From NCBI RefSeq assembly GCF_001661265.1, contig NW_017566999.1:248001-312000 (forward strand): 64,000 bases of DNA, read 5' to 3'. The notes under the pieces were generated by a model that worked only from the letters and a program-made list of their open reading frames with translations, was not told the DNA's origin and made no database searches. A program made the position numbers and the translations under genes. Position 1 is the first letter of the stretch. Each line of letters opens with the position of its first letter. This DNA comes from Saitoella complicata NRRL Y-17804. Its lineage: Eukaryota; Ascomycota; Saitoellomycetes; Saitoellales; Saitoellaceae. This document shows positions 4,237 to 63,270 of the stretch, piece by piece.

Positions 4237-5033
4237 TTAAATGCCTTCGATTGCGGACCACTTGGCTGCATCACTGCTCGCCTCCTCCGCACGAGATGCA
4301 CCCACTGTTTTCTCTTCCATGTCATGGTCTTCTTCCGTGACTCCATTCCGAGCAAACTGCGCTATCAGCCTCTCGGTCTCCCTGCACTTATCTCTGATCT
4401 TCTCCATCTCCTCCTTCTTACGTCGTATCTGCTCCTCCATCATCATGCACAGCGTCTCTCTCGCCTGGTGCGGCCGATATCCGTTCAGCAGATAGTGAAC
4501 ATTATGCACAATTCTCTTGAGATCCAACAGCTTCGGGAACCACTGTATGAAGACAGCCATTAAAATCGCGCGGAAGGGAATGCAGGCGTGATTTTCATAC
4601 CTCATTAGGATTGTCCCCCATAATCGTCACGATCTCCAGGTAGTTCAGCAACATGCTTTTTGTCAATTTCCGCAGCTCCGTGACTCTATCCACCTCTCCC
4701 TCCGGGAACAACTGTAGACCATCAGGCCATAGGATTCTCCCCGTCATTGGGTTCACCACCTCAACCAACGGCGGCAGTTCCTGATGCTCGATCTGTGGGA
4801 AAGGATCAGCACTGCAGTCTGCTGCTTCGACTTGCATCACCCACACTTCTGTCCACCCCAAAAACTGTGATATACCCCTCCTCCGGCGGCTCAGGCGGTT
4901 TCAAGAACTGCAACACCGTTCCTTCCGTCGCTCCTTCCGGCACATCCTGTGCAGCCGCAACATTCTCCGCAGTAAAGATTTTGTAGAATGGAGGCGGATC
5001 TGGGAACGCTGAGCCTTGCCCTTGCTCTGCCAT
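4237..5033 (-). CDS. MED7: Mediator complex subunit 7
   Basis: Subunit of the Mediator middle module, which bridges activators and RNA polymerase II in the nucleus. Exons 4857-5033, 4601-4792 and 4237-4542 join through phase-0 introns of 64 nt (GTGGAC...CCACAG) and 58 nt (GTATGA...ATACAG), giving 224 residues. Family landmarks are visible in order: FPDPPPFYKIFT near residues 10-21, the LKPPEPP stretch, YITVFG, then LRKLTKSMLLNYLEIV, and after the second junction WFPKLLDLKRIVHNVHYLL followed by NGYRPHQARETL and MMEEQIRRKKEE. The C-terminal part is helical and charged, as in the coiled coil that pairs with MED21. The ECM31-like gene lies 280 bp upstream on the same strand. Confidence 0.93.
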
Positions 5034-5313
5034 GGTGAGTGCCGGGGTGTGTATGCGGAGTTGGGGTGTACGACGCAGTTGCATGGGCATGCAGGGGCCA
5101 GAAATCTCGCGGTTTTGTATGATGATTTCAGGTTTGATAACTGCTGTTATACCTATGCTATGAGAATATCGCCAGTTCTCCAATCCTCCTCTTTTCTCCA
5201 GCTGGCAGTGACTGTTATAGGTTCTCACTGCACTGCCAACATTCACATATATCGTACTGTATCGCCTGATTGACCTTGCCATTGAGTTATACTTCGCAAG
5301 CAAACCGCTCCAT

Positions 5314-6321
5314 TCAATCGCTTCCAACCTTTACCTTGAACTTCTCCAACTCCTCCGGCTTTATTGGGTATGTATGCTGCACAGCCGGAAAGCTCCTAGC
5401 CTTCACTTCCTCGACATACTTGCCGATTGCTTGTCTCGTCTTCACTCCTATTGACTCATACTGCTTCACAAACTTTGGTACGAAACGCTCGAATGCGCCG
5501 AGCATGTCCAGTTGTACAAGAACCTGCCCTGAACATGCTGATCCGGCACCAATACCGATTGTGGGGACAGTGATGCGTTTTGTGATGATCTCGGCTATCT
5601 CAGCTGGCATAGCTTCCAGGACAATGGCGAAGCAGCCAGCTTTCTCAAGTGCCACTGCATCCTCCAATAGTTGCGCCGCACTCGCTGCCGTCTTTCCTTG
5701 TACTCTGAATCCACCCAAAGCCGCTTGTCTCTGTGGCAGCAATCCAATATGTCCCATCACTGGAATCCCCACCCTCGTCAACCTCTCAATCGTCACCGCC
5801 ATCTCCTTTCCTCCCTCCAACTTGACAGCCTCCACACCCCCCTCCCTAATCAACTTCGCAGCATTCCGAACAGCATCTTCTGGTGAAGCTTCATATGTCC
5901 CAAACGGTAAATCCGCAACGACATACGCCGACTTTGTTCCCCTCACCACAGCCTTTGAATGATGAATCATATCCTCCATTGTCACCTGATTTGTCGAGGT
6001 ATACCCCAATGCGACCATCGCTAGGGAGTCACCAATGAGGATCAAGTCCGTTCCAGCTTGATCCGCAGCGAGTGCTGATGGAAAATCATGTGCCGTAATC
6101 GTTGCAATCGGGATTTGCTTTTTGTAGAGTTGACGGAGGGTATGGAGTGTTGCTTTTGGTCGAGGGATATCTGCAATTGCGGTGGGTGTGGTGCTAGAGG
6201 AAGCGGGAGCACCGGCTGGATCTGGGGATGGGTGGAAGCTGTAGAATCTTATTGAGTGTTGGGTGCATGGTCTGTGTCGGAGACGGCCTAGTGAGAGCAG
6301 TGGTCGACGTAGGGAAGCCAT
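5314..6321 (-). CDS. ECM31: 3-methyl-2-oxobutanoate hydroxymethyltransferase (ketopantoate hydroxymethyltransferase)
   Basis: First committed step of pantothenate and CoA synthesis: transfers a hydroxymethyl group from 5,10-methylenetetrahydrofolate to 2-oxoisovalerate. It is a single exon of 335 residues. The first 45 residues are rich in Arg and Ser (MASLRRPLLSLGRLRHRP), consistent with a mitochondrial targeting peptide. The PanB core follows: ITAHDFPSALAADQAG, the metal/substrate segment LIGDSLAMVALGY, DLPFGTYEASPEDA, KLEGGKEM, MGHIGLLPQ and the C-terminal IGIGAGSACSGQVLV. Bacterial enzymes usually read GDSLGMV, so the Ala in GDSLAMV is a mild variant. It diverges from UBC8 across 349 bp. 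Confidence 0.95.
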   Translation of the reverse strand: MASLRRPLLSLGRLRHRPCTQHSIRFYSFHPSPDPAGAPASSSTTPTAIADIPRPKATLHTLRQLYKKQIPIATITAHDFPSALAADQAGTDLILIGDSLAMVALGYTSTNQVTMEDMIHHSKAVVRGTKSAYVVADLPFGTYEASPEDAVRNAAKLIREGGVEAVKLEGGKEMAVTIERLTRVGIPVMGHIGLLPQRQAALGGFRVQGKTAASAAQLLEDAVALEKAGCFAIVLEAMPAEIAEIITKRITVPTIGIGAGSACSGQVLVQLDMLGAFERFVPKFVKQYESIGVKTRQAIGKYVEEVKARSFPAVQHTYPIKPEELEKFKVKVGSD

Positions 6322-51892: not shown

Positions 51893-54800
51893 TCATCCCA
51901 TGAAGCTAAAGATGCTGTTTAGATCCACGTATCGCCTACCACACCTCTCCAAGTATTTCGCAATGACGGCTCTCTGCTTGTCAAACCTCTCACGGTTCTG
52001 CTCAGCCAAAGCGAAGACGATTGCAGCATCATCACCCTTCGCCTTTGCCCTCGCCTTATCCACATCGAACAAGCTGTCGAAGTACAACATTTGGTTGTAC
52101 ATCATCTTATCAGAGTACTCATACCTCATCTGACCTCGTGCTCCACGGGACAAGCAGGCCAGGCATCGCTTTCCATACACGCTCATTTGACGAGTACGGT
52201 TACCGCAGGCAGTGTCTTCACAGACGAGCCAGCCTTCGTAGTACATAGAAGTCTGCTGACGAATCTGGCAGTCGAGCTGGGCAGAGAGGGAAAGCGGCAA
52301 CACAAGAACACCACACTGGCATTGGATGCCGTTGGCGGTCACACGCTCCTGGGACTGGACAAGACCTTCGAAGTCAAAGGACTCCTTGCAAGCATGACAC
52401 TTGATCAGTAGCTTAGCCGCATCTTTGAAACGCTCTTCATCAGCAATCTGAGTCTCAAGGGGCTGGATGTCCTTATCCGCCGATCCCATCATAGCTTTCT
52501 GACCGATGTTGTACTTGCGGGTATCAAGACCAAGACACTCTGCAAGACGAGAAGAGTCCGTTCCCTCGATAGGCTGACAGAGACGATCCAACGGGGGGAA
52601 TATTTGCTTGACAAGGTAATGCTCAAAGTCGATCTTCAGATCCGAGCCTGTCTTCATATCCTGCGGAGGGTATGCACGAGCAGCGACATCCTCCGGGTTC
52701 TGAGTAGCACCTTCTTCTCCGGTGATGACATACGCAATGACGTCTCCAACACGAACAGCCTCACCCTTTGCCTTCTTCTTGAGAGCAACCTGAACTTGGG
52801 CCATGTGCTTCGCGTTCGGGTACTCCTCTGGGTTCTTACCGAGCTTGTTGTAGATGATATACTTGTTGACAGGGAAGTCGCCATTTCGCATCTTGGCAGA
52901 GAGCTCGCGAAGGTACTCGTGGATCTTCTCGATGACGGTCTCGGTTTGCTCACCCGACAAGATCTGGTTGAGAACGTACTGAGACGCATCCTTCGACAGC
53001 TGACAGAACTCACGACGCTTCATGTCGAGACCCTTAACCTCCATCTTGGACTCGAGCTTGCCATTAACCTCGATCAGGTTCAACGCAGCATACTTCTTCT
53101 TCATGTGCAACAACAACCTTTGGAAGACATTGTCGATGTCAATCTCAAGCAAGCGATAACGTCCGTTGACAGCAGCTTTGAACTCATTACCGATACGGAG
53201 AGCCTCCTGGTAGTTGTCAATGTTGGTGTTGATCATGACGGAGTCAGTATCACCATAGATGACCTGAAGCGCCATGCTCTCGGCCAACTCCTTCGTACTG
53301 GTGAGAGCTTCACGACCCTTATAGGTAACCAGAGCTGCCAATGGACGAGCGTAGAAACGAGACTTGGTGAAACCAAGACAACCGTACATAGAGTTAGCCG
53401 TCAACTTCAACGCAGTCTGCTTGGTATCCCACTGCGCGAGCTGCACAGGCGTGGCCTTCTTGTCCTTCATAAGATTCTTCACCTGCCTACGTCTCGCAAC
53501 GAGGTTAGCAAGAAGCTTTGGCAGGATACCCTGCGGCGTCTCGGCGTCCGGCAAGTCAGGCATCTTCTCGTCCTCGTTGGTCTCATCGATCTCTGAGCGA
53601 TCGACCGTCGTGAAACAGATATTGTACTCCTGGATAATAGACGGATATAGCGAGTTGAAATCCATGACCAAGACGAATTTGTCGTACAAACCCTTGATAG
53701 GATCAAGGACACGTCCACCAGCAAACTTGTTCTTCTTCTTGGACGTACCAGCCGTCGCATCATCGTCATCATCTTCCGGATTCGGTTCCGCAATAGGCTT
53801 CTTCGAGATCGGCTTATCAGGGCAAATGTACTTCGCCTTATTGAACTCATGCAAAAGAATGTACTCGTTCCGCTCGGCACGCGTACCCGTCAACGTCCTC
53901 GCCCACGAATTACCAGCAAGATTCGTCAATTGTTTCGTCAACGGCAACAACTGCGTCTTCAGCGCAATCGCCGCAATGAAATACGTGTCAACCTCGCAAT
54001 GCATCACAAACTCCGTCAACCCACGAGCGGTATCAGTCCACTGCTGAAGCGCCTTCTCAATATCCATCTCCTCCCTCTTCTTCCCGAGCTGAGTCTGGAC
54101 CATTTCAGTCAACGACCACGAAGTACCCTTGATTGTCGACTTGCCGAGATCGTTGGCCAAATCGCACATCAAACGCCCCGCAACGATCTTCTTCTCCTCA
54201 AACGAGTTTCCAGCAGCCCTGTTCATGAAGATTTTGGGCCATTCCCTCCTCCTCATCCTTCCCAGCCTATGCCAGTTCATCGTCTTTTTCTCCCTCATCC
54301 TGTGCAACAGCACACCATAATCAACTCCCTCGAGTCCGTGTCCAATATACACGTCCGGATCAACGCCCTGGATTTTAGTAACGAAGCAATTCAGGAGCGC
54401 ACTCTCCGTCTTCTCACACCTAATCTGCCCACGATGCTTCCTAACTTCGGTCTCAAATCCAGCGGGGAAGACACCCTTCAAAGGCCTGACAACCGTGAAC
54501 GTCGAACAAGGCAACTTCTCCGCAGGGGTAGGATCATCCATATTGACATTCTCGTAAATCCTCGCACTCGCAACCACGATCTCCTGCTTGTTCTCCGCGT
54601 GGTTCATCATGGTCCTGAACGCGAGAGACATGACCGTCAAAGGCGGAGTCTCCAGCGTACCATCAGGCAAAGTCGTGATCAGCTCAGGATCAGAAACCGC
54701 GAGTTCGAGTTTACACCACGAAGCATTCGTAACCGCATTGAAATCCGCTTCCTTGATTTCCAACCAGCAGGGACCCATGACACGCCTATAGAGCACGAAT

Positions 54801-56248
54801 TGCTCAAACAAGGGCGTATTGGTACCGAAGACGCGGGAGAACGTGTCACCATTCAACTCCTGCGGAAGCTGCGCCTTCGAGTACTCGTACAACACCTTGA
54901 GGTAATCGCCCTCGGCGGGCACACCGCCCTCCTCGAACGCATACTTCCGCTTCGAAACCTTCGACTTAAAACCCACAATACCAGCCTTGGAAAGTAGTCC
55001 AGATACCTCCTCCCAGACTTGTCCCATCCCGACCTCTTCTCCTGATCTGTGGTTCGTATCACGGGGAAGGAAGTACAGGTTCCGAAGGATCCCGTCGACA
55101 CGGACGAAAGCCGAGACGTGCGTCTGCGTTTTCTTGTTGAAAACCTTTCCAAAAAGGTAGAGCGATCCACCGAGTTCGATGTAGTCAATCCAGAAGAATC
55201 GTAAGGTACCGTTCTCCTCACACGCATCCTCGGGACTAATTTTCGAGCCTGATGACGGGAATTGCGGAGACGAGGTGATGTTCAGCGACGCATCGACATC
55301 CATCCACGCACTTGCGTCAACAGCCGCAGTAACCGGCGACGTGGGAATAGCTCCGTTCGGATGCGTCTGAATCGGCTTCAACCTATTCGGCTGCTCAGCC
55401 ATCCTTGGCACAGACCTCGTAGCTGAAACATTAACCCCTGTCGTCCGTAGCCCACGATGCGCAGTCAACGGCTTGACCACGAAATCATCCTCATCCTCCT
55501 CCTCATCCTCCGCGACGACCAACTTCTTCGCTGCAGGCGTGGGTGACGAAGGCGGGATAATTGGTTCGCCCATGTCGTAGTCGTTGTCGTCGGTCATGGG
55601 GTGGTCGGCGTCGTTGAGTTGGATGCTGGGTGGGGAGGAGGGCATGGGTGGGTCCATTTTGCGAGAGGCTGCGCGTGGGGGTGGGGATGGTGCACGCTTC
55701 TTGCGGGCTGCGCCAAGTGGGGAGGATTCGGCTGCTCGCTTGTTTGCTCGACGAGATGCGGAGGCGTATGCGGTTGAATCGTCCTCCACGTCGAAGTCAC
55801 CTAGGATGCCTGCCATGAATTCTGCGTCTTCGACTGTAGGCGCTACTGCGGTTTGGTTGGTTGTCGTTGGTACAGTCACTTTCGCAAGGTATTTGTTAAT
55901 CGACTCGTTCTTCTTCTCCTTCTGTGCCGCCTCCTCCTTCTTCTGTTTCGCAGTCTTCTTTGGTCTCTGATCGTCCTCCTCATCGCTGTACCTCTCCCTT
56001 TCAAACTCATCCTGTCCATAATCGACGTATCCCTCTCCATTATCATCAACAATGAAGTCATCCTCATCTAGTATCTCGCGTTGACGCTTAGTGTACTCTT
56101 CCTCATCGAGTTCATCGTAGATATCCTCCTCGGCTTCATCCTCGTAGGTTGCAGCACGCGTCTTTCCCGCCGCTTTGAGGGCGCGGAGTTCGGCGAACTT
56201 GTCGCGAGGATTCTTCTTTGTGTTTATTCTTCGTGATGGGCGGTCCAT
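51893..56248 (-). CDS. POL1: DNA polymerase alpha catalytic subunit
   Basis: Catalytic subunit of polymerase alpha-primase, which starts Okazaki fragments. Single exon of 1451 residues. The N-terminus carries the Ctf4-type region and acidic stretches (DELDEEEYTKRQREILDEDD). An inactive exonuclease-like domain occupies the middle. Polymerase motifs: DFNSLYPSIIQEYNICFTTV (motif A, about 863-882), LTANSMYGCLGFTKSRFYAR (motif B) and YGDTDSV (motif C, about 998). The C-terminal cysteine modules start at CHACKESF (about 1284) and include CEDTACGNRTRQM with CLAC (about 1345-1370). The absence of introns over 4.3 kb is notable here. Confidence 0.98.
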   Translation of the reverse strand: MDRPSRRINTKKNPRDKFAELRALKAAGKTRAATYEDEAEEDIYDELDEEEYTKRQREILDEDDFIVDDNGEGYVDYGQDEFERERYSDEEDDQRPKKTAKQKKEEAAQKEKKNESINKYLAKVTVPTTTNQTAVAPTVEDAEFMAGILGDFDVEDDSTAYASASRRANKRAAESSPLGAARKKRAPSPPPRAASRKMDPPMPSSPPSIQLNDADHPMTDDNDYDMGEPIIPPSSPTPAAKKLVVAEDEEEDEDDFVVKPLTAHRGLRTTGVNVSATRSVPRMAEQPNRLKPIQTHPNGAIPTSPVTAAVDASAWMDVDASLNITSSPQFPSSGSKISPEDACEENGTLRFFWIDYIELGGSLYLFGKVFNKKTQTHVSAFVRVDGILRNLYFLPRDTNHRSGEEVGMGQVWEEVSGLLSKAGIVGFKSKVSKRKYAFEEGGVPAEGDYLKVLYEYSKAQLPQELNGDTFSRVFGTNTPLFEQFVLYRRVMGPCWLEIKEADFNAVTNASWCKLELAVSDPELITTLPDGTLETPPLTVMSLAFRTMMNHAENKQEIVVASARIYENVNMDDPTPAEKLPCSTFTVVRPLKGVFPAGFETEVRKHRGQIRCEKTESALLNCFVTKIQGVDPDVYIGHGLEGVDYGVLLHRMREKKTMNWHRLGRMRRREWPKIFMNRAAGNSFEEKKIVAGRLMCDLANDLGKSTIKGTSWSLTEMVQTQLGKKREEMDIEKALQQWTDTARGLTEFVMHCEVDTYFIAAIALKTQLLPLTKQLTNLAGNSWARTLTGTRAERNEYILLHEFNKAKYICPDKPISKKPIAEPNPEDDDDDATAGTSKKKNKFAGGRVLDPIKGLYDKFVLVMDFNSLYPSIIQEYNICFTTVDRSEIDETNEDEKMPDLPDAETPQGILPKLLANLVARRRQVKNLMKDKKATPVQLAQWDTKQTALKLTANSMYGCLGFTKSRFYARPLAALVTYKGREALTSTKELAESMALQVIYGDTDSVMINTNIDNYQEALRIGNEFKAAVNGRYRLLEIDIDNVFQRLLLHMKKKYAALNLIEVNGKLESKMEVKGLDMKRREFCQLSKDASQYVLNQILSGEQTETVIEKIHEYLRELSAKMRNGDFPVNKYIIYNKLGKNPEEYPNAKHMAQVQVALKKKAKGEAVRVGDVIAYVITGEEGATQNPEDVAARAYPPQDMKTGSDLKIDFEHYLVKQIFPPLDRLCQPIEGTDSSRLAECLGLDTRKYNIGQKAMMGSADKDIQPLETQIADEERFKDAAKLLIKCHACKESFDFEGLVQSQERVTANGIQCQCGVLVLPLSLSAQLDCQIRQQTSMYYEGWLVCEDTACGNRTRQMSVYGKRCLACLSRGARGQMRYEYSDKMMYNQMLYFDSLFDVDKARAKAKGDDAAIVFALAEQNRERFDKQRAVIAKYLERCGRRYVDLNSIFSFMG

Positions 56249-56642: not shown

Positions 56643-58219
56643 ATGGCCGGAACGTAAGTCGCTCTTTCTCTCCTGTCCTCCAGGAGTTGAATCAAGCTGT
56701 CTTTACTTCACTCGTGAAATCGTTCAGGAGCTTATGCTTCTGGCACACCCAATCCCTGATCTGCCTTACTTCTCATGTCGAGAGGGGAGATTGGGGAAAG
56801 AGTTCTTCCCGTTACGGGAGTTCTCGAACTTTTGTCCTGTGCTTCGGCACGGGGTGTTGAGGGCTAAGGCGATTTGGATGTTCATATGTGAACTGAAAAC
56901 CTTTCCTTTTAAATCTATTTCTTGGTCACAACATAACCGAGATGGGACTATTGATCTTGTCGATCACCCAATCTCTTCAGTTGTGCCTTGATCCTGGCTC
57001 TCTTCCTTACCGAACGAGCCGGGGAATTGTTGCGTGCGGATCACCGATCTGCTCCAATGAATATTATTCAAACCACGTCGAGCCCTTCGAGCGGGTCGGA
57101 CTTTTTGTCTGTGCCACGTATATGCTCTGACGTTTCTGTTTGTTGCAAAGCCCCTTTTTTCAATTCCCTTATTGGATTTGCGGGGTTTTATTTATGCCGT
57201 GGTTTGAATCCTAACGTTTTGCGTCCTCTAGTACTGTCCCCACCACCGAGCAGATTCTCGTCCCCGAGACCCTCTTGAAGAAGAGGAAGGCTCAGGAGAA
57301 GACCGCCGAGGAGCGCAAGGCCGCCCAGGTTGAGAAGAAGAAGGTTAGTTCGAACTTCTGCGTCCATGGTGTGCGTGCAGGGAAGAAGAGAATGTGATTG
57401 TCTCGAGACTGCGATGAAGAAATTGCATTACCAGCATTTTTTGACAGCTAGCCACGGCGATGTTGCTACAGTTAACCATCTTTCGGGACTGAGTTCGTCT
57501 CGAGATATTCTGATCTCTTCTTTGTCTTGCGCATATACTTGAGGCGCAACCCTGCAACCCCCGAACATCATGACTAACATGTCATCATACAGGCTGCCAA
57601 GGCCAAGCGTGAGGTCATCTTCAAGCGTGCTGAGAAGTACGTCAAGGAGTACCGTGACGCCGAGCGTGAGCAGATCCGTCTTGCCCGCCTCGCCAAGAAG
57701 GACGGTGACTTCTACGTCCCTGCCCAGTCCAAGGTCGTCTTCGTTGTCCGTATCAAGGGTATCAACAAGATCGCCCCCAAGCCCCGCAAGGTCCTTCAGC
57801 TCCTCCGTCTCCTCCAGATCAACAACGGTGTCTTTGTTAAGTTGACCAAGGCTACCTCCGAGATGCTCCAGATCGTCCAGCCTTACATCACCTACGGTGA
57901 CGTCAACTTGAAGTCCGTCCGTGAGCTCGTCTACAAGCGTGGATACGGTAAGATCAACAAGCAGCGCATTCCTCTTTCCGACAACGCCTTGATCGAGGCT
58001 AACCTCGGCTCTTTCGGTATCATCTCCATTGAGGATTTGATCCACGAGATCTACACTGTTGGTCCCAACTTCAAGCAGGCCTCCAACTTCATGTGGCCCT
58101 TCAAGTTGTCCAACCCCAACGGTGGCTGGAAGTCCCGCAAGTTCCTTCACTTCATTGAGGGTGGTGACTGCGGTTACCGTGGTGACGCCATCAACGCTCT
58201 TATCCGCCAGATGAACTAA
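56643..58219 (+). CDS. RPL7: 60S ribosomal protein L7 (uL30)
   Basis: Large-subunit protein of the uL30 family. Exons 56643-56653 (11 nt), 57232-57343 and 57593-58219 give 249 residues. The spliced N-terminus is [20 protein letters not shown], a lysine-rich helix follows, then [34 protein letters not shown], and the end [18 protein letters not shown]. Intron 1 is 578 nt, by far the longest in the window. Intron 2 is 249 nt and carries a C/D snoRNA. Yeast RPL7 paralogues also host C/D snoRNAs in their introns, so the arrangement appears ancient. Confidence 0.97.
56654..57231 (+). other. Long first intron of RPL7
   Basis: A 578-nt intron (GTAAGT donor, TCCTCTAG acceptor with CTAAC branch-like sequence at 57211-57215). 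No canonical TGATGA box C was found, so I do not call a second snoRNA, though its length is unusual for this genome. Confidence 0.6.
57401..57505 (+). ncRNA. Intronic C/D-box snoRNA in RPL7, snR39B-like (predicted 25S rRNA 2'-O-methylation guide)
   Basis: Lies within the second intron of RPL7. A 9-bp perfect terminal stem pairs TCTCGAGAC (57401-57409) with GTCTCGAGA (57497-57505). Box C is GCGATGA (57411-57417; one change from RTGATGA) and box D is CTGA (57489-57492). Weaker inner boxes are D' TTGA (57441-57444) and C' GCGATGT (57457-57463). The 14 nt directly before box D (57475-57488) are complementary to TCCCGAAAGATGGT, which I recall as a conserved 25S/28S segment (TCCCGAAAGATGGTGAACTA). 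Counting five bases from box D predicts methylation of the G in CCCG. This is, from memory, the yeast Gm805 site guided by snR39B, next to Am807 (snR39/snR59). Confidence 0.78.
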
Positions 58220-60534: not shown

Positions 60535-63270
60535 CTATTTCCTGAACTTGTGCTGCGGCCTTGCGTTCTTCTCCCTCCTGTTCTGCTGACCTTGCCTGTC
60601 CTTTCTGATATCGGACACGCTCTTGAGATCGGTCTTAGGCTTCTTCGCACCCCTACCCAATCCCTTCTCCGCAGCTTCCTTGACCCTCTTCTTCCGTACC
60701 TCGTAGTCGTCCCGACCCTTAACGGCAGCTTTGGGTGCTTGCACCTTAGTGTGCTTGAAACGACCTCTAGGTCCACCGATGAACCTGGATTCACCTTGAC
60801 CGGCGAGATGAGAGGAATCGACACCAGGCATGTTGGTCTTCGTCTTATTCTGCCAAGCCTCGAAACGACCGGACTTGAAGGTTGCGGGGATCTTCACACC
60901 GGACTCACCACGGATCATCTTCACGCCCTTCGAACCGTCATCGTCGTTCATGCGGTTCACGTAGTTCTTCTTCTTTGGGTCCCAACGGAGGCCACGATTA
61001 TTCCGCTCTCCGACACCAGTCTCGTCGTTGACGAGGTCCATGGCGACATCTCGTGCTTGCTCAGCAAAGTTGGTACCCTTGGAGTTAATGTCATATCCAC
61101 GCTCCTGCATAGCGGCCATAGGCTGGAAGTGAGAGATGTAATGCTCACTATCCTTGAATGACGTGGGCTTGTCCTTCTTCGCCTTGTTCTTGCGTTCAGT
61201 AGCCTTCGCGATATCCTTTGACGACGTGAACGCATCCTCCACGTCCGACTCCGCAGCATCCGAGAGATCTGCCCATGCGTCACCACGGTCCTCCTCAAGA
61301 GCCTGGACCTCCTCCATGTCATCATCGTTGCCACCTTCCTCCTCGCCTTGAGTGGTCCTGGGTCCAATGATGATCTTAGCTCTCCTCTTCCTCATAACGT
61401 CTGCAGCCGCATTCCTAGAAACACCCCTCTTACCAATCTCGAAGATAGTCTCCGCAGGTCTGATGTTGGCCAACCTCTTCAACATATCCTCACGCTCCTT
61501 CGAAGCGTTGTCAGGTGCAGCTGCTAGAAGCGGGTGCACCAACGACCATCCACGGCCAGCAACAACCTCCTTCGCACGCTTCACAGACTCAGCAGAAGCT
61601 GACGTCCTGGTCTTCAAGTAAAGACGCTCACCGCGCTGCGAGACACCCTTCTGAGCGGCCAGATCAGCGCTCCTGCTCAAGCTAGAAGCGACAAACTCCG
61701 TAGTGCTCTCAACACCGTCACGAGGCAGTCCACCAAGCACGATTTCACCAGAATAATCCGGAGTCTCATGCTTGTTCTCGGCAGGAACGACCAACTTGCG
61801 TCCCAAGAAGAGCTGCAGGTCAAGAAGGTAAGGCGCATCCTCGGCACGAACCAAAGAGTACGCCCAACCCTTGCGACCAGCACGAGCGGTACGTCCGACA
61901 CGATGCACAAACACCTTCGGCTCACTAGGGAAGTCGTAGTTGATGACATTCGACAAAATAGGAATATCGATACCACGAGCAGCAACATCCGTGACGACCA
62001 ACAAAGACGTACGTCCAGCACGGAAATCGGCAATTTGGTTCTTACGCGCAGTTTGGTCGAGGGAACCGTAGATGTAAGAAACTGCGTATCCGGCAAGGAT
62101 AAGGAGGTTGGAGATGTACTCGACGTGGTGCTTAGTCGAGACGAAAATGATCGTGGCGTGAGGCGAGACGGCTGCGTTACCCTCGGGAATGTAGTCACGC
62201 TTGCGTTTCTTGCCTACCTCCTCAGCAAGAGGCGCACCAGGTGGGACCTTGATGACTTCCTGCAAGATATAGAGCAAACCACCCTCCTTCTCAGCAGTCT
62301 TAACACTGAAAAACGCGGACTCGAGTTCAGTAGAGATCTTGGAGTCGACATCCAAACGAACAAGAACAGGGTCCTGCAAACCAGCCTTCGCAAACTCCAC
62401 CAAGCTCTTCGGAAGAGTAGCAGAGAAAAGCAGGGTCTGACGCATAGACGGCAGCGCATGCAAAATCTCAGTCAACTGCGAACTGAAACCCATCTCGAAA
62501 AGGCGATCGGCCTCATCAAAGACAACATACTCCACTGAACTCAACTGCAACGCCATCTCGACCTTCAAATGCATGAAACGACCAGGCGTAGCAATGATAA
62601 TGTCGGGGTTCGCAGACATCATAGCAAACTGCTCCTCCAAACTATCACCACCAACAACCAACACCGTCTTCAAATCCGTACCCTTTCCAAATTCCTTGAC
62701 AACCCTGAGCGTTTGCAACGCCAACTCACGAGACGGTGACATGATGATCGCACGTGCTCCAGTCTGCGCACGATGACTCTTGATCTTCTCCAACATCGGC
62801 AGCACGAACGCAGCAGTCTTTCCGGATCCAGTACGTGCCATACCGACAACATCCCGTCCCTCAATCACGAGCGGGATGGTCTTTCTCTGAATGGGCGTAG
62901 GTACTTTGAACCCCTTCGCTACGATCGCCTTCAGGATGTTCGCAGACAACCCCATCGACTGGAATCCTCCACTCTTCGCCTTCTTTCCCTTGACTCCGAC
63001 CGTGCTTTTGCGGTTAATCGCAGTCTGATGTGCCGCAATGAATGCCTCATCATCATCCTCATCCTCACCCCCCTCAAAGTCTCCAACCAACTCCAACGCA
63101 TCCGCAGCCGTAGCCTTCTTCTCCACCTTCTTCGCTTTCTTCTCTACCGGCTTCCCAGCCTCGCTAAAATCGAAGTCGAAACCATCGTCACCCCCGCCTC
63201 CCGCAATGGCATCCGCAATATCAAACTCGTACTCGCTTTCCGCGGGTGATGCTTCCCGTGCTCGAACCAT
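60535..63270 (-). CDS. DBP10: ATP-dependent RNA helicase Dbp10 (DDX54)
   Basis: Nucleolar DEAD-box helicase of 60S ribosome assembly. Single exon of 911 residues. Q motif GFKVPTPIQRKTIPLVIEG (about 118-136), motif I ARTGSGKT (about 145), PSRELALQT (Ia), motif II VFDEADRLFEMGF (about 248; DEAD), SAT in LFSATLP (about 281), and motif VI HRVGRTARAGRKG (about 457). The C-terminal DBP10CT region has IIGPRTTQGEEEG-type sequence further on, SEHYISHFQPMAAMQERGYD and GLRWDPKKKNYVN. The tail is basic (RKDRQGQQNRREKNARPQHK). N-terminal acidic/Lys regions are normal for the family. Confidence 0.96.
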   Translation of the reverse strand: MVRAREASPAESEYEFDIADAIAGGGGDDGFDFDFSEAGKPVEKKAKKVEKKATAADALELVGDFEGGEDEDDDEAFIAAHQTAINRKSTVGVKGKKAKSGGFQSMGLSANILKAIVAKGFKVPTPIQRKTIPLVIEGRDVVGMARTGSGKTAAFVLPMLEKIKSHRAQTGARAIIMSPSRELALQTLRVVKEFGKGTDLKTVLVVGGDSLEEQFAMMSANPDIIIATPGRFMHLKVEMALQLSSVEYVVFDEADRLFEMGFSSQLTEILHALPSMRQTLLFSATLPKSLVEFAKAGLQDPVLVRLDVDSKISTELESAFFSVKTAEKEGGLLYILQEVIKVPPGAPLAEEVGKKRKRDYIPEGNAAVSPHATIIFVSTKHHVEYISNLLILAGYAVSYIYGSLDQTARKNQIADFRAGRTSLLVVTDVAARGIDIPILSNVINYDFPSEPKVFVHRVGRTARAGRKGWAYSLVRAEDAPYLLDLQLFLGRKLVVPAENKHETPDYSGEIVLGGLPRDGVESTTEFVASSLSRSADLAAQKGVSQRGERLYLKTRTSASAESVKRAKEVVAGRGWSLVHPLLAAAPDNASKEREDMLKRLANIRPAETIFEIGKRGVSRNAAADVMRKRRAKIIIGPRTTQGEEEGGNDDDMEEVQALEEDRGDAWADLSDAAESDVEDAFTSSKDIAKATERKNKAKKDKPTSFKDSEHYISHFQPMAAMQERGYDINSKGTNFAEQARDVAMDLVNDETGVGERNNRGLRWDPKKKNYVNRMNDDDGSKGVKMIRGESGVKIPATFKSGRFEAWQNKTKTNMPGVDSSHLAGQGESRFIGGPRGRFKHTKVQAPKAAVKGRDDYEVRKKRVKEAAEKGLGRGAKKPKTDLKSVSDIRKDRQGQQNRREKNARPQHKFRK

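Follow-up and report, generated by a model that had tools for sequence, protein, structure and literature searches.

A predicted snR39/snR39b-type box C/D snoRNA in the second intron of RPL7, with a guide facing the equivalent of yeast 25S G805

The second intron of the ribosomal protein gene RPL7 (uL30) in the window analyzed here, i.e., the whole stretch of 64,000 nucleotides, encodes with high probability a fungal box C/D snoRNA related in type to snR39/snR39b, which would guide 2′-O-methylation of the equivalent of yeast 25S G805. Judged from its sequence, the guide RNA is very likely responsible for a conserved methylation of the large-subunit (LSU) rRNA, and we infer its expression, its processing, the methylation and a common ancestry with yeast snR39/snR59. 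An initial annotation had placed a box C/D snoRNA at 57401-57505 in this intron; its coordinates proved right, and the boxes, stem and guide lie where it had put them. The features of the locus are as follows.

56643-58219, plus strand: host gene RPL7 (uL30), with an open spliced translation and profile and PDB matches
56643-56653, 57232-57343 and 57593-58219, plus strand: the three exons of RPL7
57344-57592, plus strand: intron 2, 249 nt, phase 0, GTTAGT...CTAAC (A 57577)...CAG
57344-57400, plus strand: 5′ intron flank, whose predicted pairing with the downstream flank would lengthen the terminal stem
57401-57505, plus strand: predicted box C/D snoRNA, snR39/snR39b-like, 105 nt with a 9-bp terminal stem
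57401-57409, plus strand: 5′ arm of the terminal stem, TCTCGAGAC, pairing with 57497-57505
57411-57417, plus strand: box C, GCGATGA, one mismatch to RTGATGA
57414-57420, plus strand: alternative box C, ATGAAGA, one mismatch to RTGATGA
57470-57487, plus strand: guide, complementary at 17 of 18 nt to the conserved LSU segment CCCGAAAGATGGTGAACT (rRNA letters assumed)
57489-57492, plus strand: box D, exact CTGA
57497-57505, plus strand: 3′ arm of the terminal stem, GTCTCGAGA, pairing with 57401-57409
57506-57592, plus strand: 3′ intron flank, containing the branch point and predicted to form the other half of the flank duplex

The spliced frame of the host gene is a complete uL30 protein of 249 amino acids, which scores 338.3 bits against the TIGR01310 profile (uL30_euk, cut-off 254) and finds its top PDB matches in 7olc_LF (E 1.8e-121) and 7r81_I1 (E 2.3e-119), which we take to be the Chaetomium and Neurospora ribosomes, respectively. 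Judged by yeast exon lengths, intron 2 may stand in the same column as the yeast RPL7 intron. According to one study, the position of an RPL7 intron is kept in 82% of the fungal species examined and is conserved in eight intron-poor fungi, in which this intron reportedly harbors a C/D snoRNA (PMC8476143).

Within intron 2, the element is preceded by 57 nt and followed by 87 nt of intron sequence, and the first of these distances, measured from the 5′ splice site, falls inside the main range of 41-60 nt in Neurospora. The terminal stem consists of nine perfect base pairs, separated from box C by 1 nt and from box D by 4 nt, and both this stem and box D are of the form expected of a C/D snoRNA. 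Box C is a weak match to RUGAUGA, and its position is ambiguous because GCGATGA and the overlapping ATGAAGA are equally good. The Rfam alignments of snoR116 and snR39 also place box C differently.

The guide was read against LSU letters and a yeast numbering around Gm805/Am807 that we assume to be correct; by string match, 45 open-access texts contain one or more of four variants of the segment. On these letters, the guide core ACCATCTTTCGGG(A) at 57475-57487(88) forms 13 contiguous pairs (57475-57487), which exceeds the at least 10 bp of complementarity directly upstream of box D or D′ that defines a guide, and AGTT at 57470-57473 adds four 5′ pairs beyond one A/G mismatch, by which the duplex may extend in the 5′ direction. 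The duplex of guide and assumed rRNA has a computed energy of -27.9 kcal/mol, equalled by none of 1000 shuffled guides. The fifth nucleotide before box D, C57484, faces the equivalent of yeast 25S G805 in the assumed letters and numbering, which is the pairing of a snR39b-type guide and bears out the earlier assignment of the target to this G and not to A807. A second guide, before a box D′, was not identified.

The same annotation had counted a guide of 14 nt. Its perfect 9-bp stem, its box D and the position of the guide before box D all stand, and its box C stands with one mismatch and the ambiguity described above; the length of the guide is probably to be reduced. A 14th pair, at A57488, requires a U before CCCG in the rRNA, and the base before CCCGAAAGATGG is A in 40 of the 40 matches listed, out of 49 published texts that contain the 13-mer and one further base, and T, C or G in none of those 40. 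These texts were matched by string, so that not every one need quote rRNA, and their titles mostly concern animals, with one on mushroom-forming fungi. The 14th pair thus probably does not form, leaving a contiguous duplex of 13 bp, and we expect the LSU rRNA of this species to read ACCCGAAAGATGGTGAACT at the equivalent of yeast positions 801-819. Four strings joining the guide to box D, written as DNA and as RNA with either A or G ahead of CTGA, gave no match in the open-access texts searched; the string CATCTTTCGGGG occurs in two open-access texts that, by title, concern the vertebrate retina. ACCATCTTTCGGG appears three times in a Zymoseptoria small-RNA paper (PMC6620828), which is neither one of the 40 listed matches above nor a match to the joined strings.

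Such a combination of features is rare by chance. When both strands were scanned for a box C with at most one mismatch, an exact CTGA 35-110 nt further on and a stem of at least 7 bp, the sole match in the window was the element at 57401-57505 (counted twice, once per box C), and 20 second-order Markov sequences of 64 kb contained a mean of 0.35 matches with stems of at least 7 bp and none with stems of at least 9 bp. The 14-mer of the guide, allowing one mismatch, occurs once in the 64 kb against 0.02 expected, and 2 of 100 shuffles contained an occurrence.

Over the 64 kb, no Rfam family was matched at its gathering score (0 matches). A permissive scan of 1611 bases yielded nine matches up to E 10. 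Among these, RF01197 (snR39) was matched over its whole model with 19.0 bits, below its gathering score of 40 and not significant (E 3.1), and RF01299 (SNORD2/snR39B) with 17.4 bits, below its gathering score of 37 (E 5.3). The best permissive match, snoR116 (25.1 bits vs. 47, E 0.044), was set aside; its alignment covers chiefly the 5′ part and leaves 33 model positions undisplayed. The minus-strand matches to sR48, SNORD39, SAM-SAH and TCL6_1, as well as those to CRISPR and S6-S18, were judged to be chance. In the guide region, the consensus of RF01197 reads CAUCUUUCGGG-G-CUGA (as CAUCUUUCGGGGCUGA), its guide lying as many nucleotides from box D as that of the present element, and the CAUCUUUCGGGACUGA guide together with box D is identical to the consensus of SNORD2 (RF01299). 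The interior of the element (CTAGC...GCGATGTTG) was set aside as proof of homology with snR39, its similarity to RF01197 outside guide and boxes being equalled in 479 of 5000 shuffled sequences and in 223 of 4989 segments of the window. Since this similarity is not significant, common descent with snR39 rests on the host, the intron and the guide, and the function as a G805-type guide is a firmer claim than descent from an ancestor of snR39.

By analogy with the snoRNA family, from which the following steps are taken, the spliced intron lariat would be debranched, a step supported by a Fusarium debranching mutant in which intronic SnR39 reportedly falls and snoRNA-bearing lariats rise (PMC9606315). 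An exonuclease would then trim the debranched intron to the snoRNP, the guide upstream of box D would pair with LSU rRNA, and Nop1/fibrillarin would 2′-O-methylate the counterpart of G805 in yeast 25S rRNA. The flanks of the element could contribute to its maturation. Their predicted duplex (-45.1 kcal/mol, z -4.0) was matched by 1 of 1000 shuffles, and the whole intron folds with z -3.84, as well as which none of 200 shuffles folded; the element alone folds only modestly better than its shuffled versions, 6 of 200 of which equal it (z -2.09). In the folding model the paired flanks form one long stem by which the 5′ splice site would be brought close to the branch region, and an extended external stem of this kind may aid the processing of an intronic snoRNA.

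The same folding can be put to another use. If the complementarity and the stem belonged to an intron fold that acts in the splicing or autoregulation of RPL7, with no snoRNA involved, then z-values of -3.84 for the intron and -4.0 for its flanks would be in keeping with it, and a separate “rpl7 motif” of about 30 nt has been described in fungal RPL7 introns, with RT-PCR of its host pre-mRNA in A. nidulans (PMC5640933). Such a fold leaves unexplained, however, why the sequence directly before CTGA should be exactly complementary to a conserved region of rRNA methylation, and we regard it as most improbable. Somewhat less improbable, though still unlikely, is that the element is an orthologue of snR39/snR59 that marks the A807 equivalent through a non-canonical spacing or an unseen alternative box. 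It shares its host gene and intron number with yeast snR39/snR59, which are assigned to A807 (PMC2806949; PMC5295604), and the spacing of RF01197 is as here, yet snR39/59 are tabulated at the A (PMC3511168); the spacing thus points to G and the table to A, an inconsistency within the yeast family as represented by this consensus. Against this, the D+5 rule gives G in the present element, the listed predictions for intronic RNAs of N. crassa and T. rubrum name the G site (PMC2780460; PMC3890542), and a mark on A807 would need box D two bases nearer the guide, where no CTGA is present.

With the G805 equivalent thus preferred as the target, the register of the guide can be considered. It had been proposed that the guide kept its host and shifted by two nucleotides in this genome. 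That proposal finds no support, as the RF01197 consensus has an identical distance from guide to box D and the intronic RNAs of T. rubrum and N. crassa have been given the G site. A wider version we consider less likely than not: across fungi, the RPL7-hosted guide would have moved by two nucleotides within the same intron, the change lying in the nucleotides that separate guide and box D. Filamentous species, the present one included, would have kept G805, and snR39/snR59 of the Saccharomyces lineage would have been redirected to A807 once a distinct snR39b had assumed the G805 role. Provided that snR39 of S. cerevisiae is reflected in the RF01197 consensus, the D+5 rule gives G805 for this RNA too, against the tabulated A807; either the sequence of snR39 differs from the consensus or the A807 assignment rests on something other than D+5.

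The surroundings of the element offered several further observations. RPL7 lies near genes for the DNA polymerase alpha catalytic subunit (51893-56248) and a DBP10-type DEAD-box helicase (60535-63270), and DBP10, like RPL7, serves 60S biogenesis. MCM6 is also encoded in the window, and three of the six ORFs submitted had no Pfam match. Together with RPL7, this gene content marks the window as fungal nuclear DNA, probably from a filamentous ascomycete. Intron 1 of RPL7 (56654-57231, 578 nt) is predicted to fold very strongly, with -198.6 kcal/mol (z -6.46, 0 of 100 shuffles equally stable) and contains a perfect 12-bp inverted repeat (57066-57077/57198-57209); the modeled structure may be an autoregulatory or splicing element or may hold an unrecognized RNA, and the published “rpl7” and “rpl7-l8-s3” intron motifs could be related to it (PMC5640933). 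A search of genome contigs with the RPL7 protein found one relative among 94 stretches, 44% identical. This is a eukaryotic-type uL30 gene (5001-5816 of its stretch) with a frame broken as if by introns, on a contig titled as a Verrucomicrobiaceae MAG (JAIYDP010000142.1), and is likely contamination; of three 11-mers taken from the guide or from its complement, none occurs in that stretch. No relative of RPL7 was found among 12 stretches of viral contigs, in which the guide-plus-box and rRNA patterns likewise gave 0 and 0 matches. RF01197 and the rRNA pattern gave 0 and 0 in G001, and since RF01197 matched none of 14 controls, that search says nothing of absence.

C/D snoRNAs in RPL7 introns are known from many fungi, and the present one is therefore an ordinary though real find, which adds one more RPL7-hosted guide. 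It illustrates that a convincing snoRNA from a filamentous fungus can score below the gathering thresholds of all Rfam families, and it exposes a small puzzle, in that the spacing of the Rfam snR39 family predicts G805 and the yeast RNAs are listed for A807. A Plasmodium guide for Gm805 listed downstream of “RPL7a” was left out of the comparison, as that name presumably denotes a protein other than RPL7. G805-type guides in introns of filamentous fungi have already been described. Trichophyton rubrum TRnc_2265 is an intronic RNA of 87 nt classified under RF01197 with a predicted 25S Gm808 site (PMC3890542), and Neurospora CD47 is an intronic RNA of 75 nt assigned to 26S-Gm785 by its box D guide, for which each of four species columns lists a homologue of snR39b type (PMC2780460). 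Guides for the same G are also listed in chicken, yeast, Arabidopsis and human (PMC2653536; PMC3511168). The host and target found here agree with these earlier descriptions of filamentous fungi.

Yeast snR39 and snR59 (RF01197), located in the second introns of RPL7A/B (PMC5295604), resemble the element in host gene, second intron, C/D type, rRNA segment and consensus spacing, and differ in their assignment to Am807, whereas D+5 here falls on the G805 equivalent; this comparison was made with the RF01197 consensus and published descriptions. In its own numbering, one table sets snR39/59 at Am805 and snR39B at Gm803, two bases before, and gives SNORD2 as the family of snR39B and of the guide listed for human Gm1509 (PMC3511168). 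Not all fungi share this arrangement: in three species of the Candida CTG clade, namely Candida parapsilosis, C. orthopsilosis and Lodderomyces elongisporus, snR39 and snR59 were not found (PMC5033589). The snR39b/SNORD2 family (RF01299) shares the identical guide plus box and the same predicted site, and its hosts differ, with (M) in yeast, taken as monocistronic, vs. (I) in human, and an EIF4A2 intron in chicken. TRnc_2265 and CD47, compared by location and assigned site, are like the present element intronic and predicted to address the G805 equivalent, and at 87 and 75 nt they are shorter than its 105 nt measured to the stem ends.
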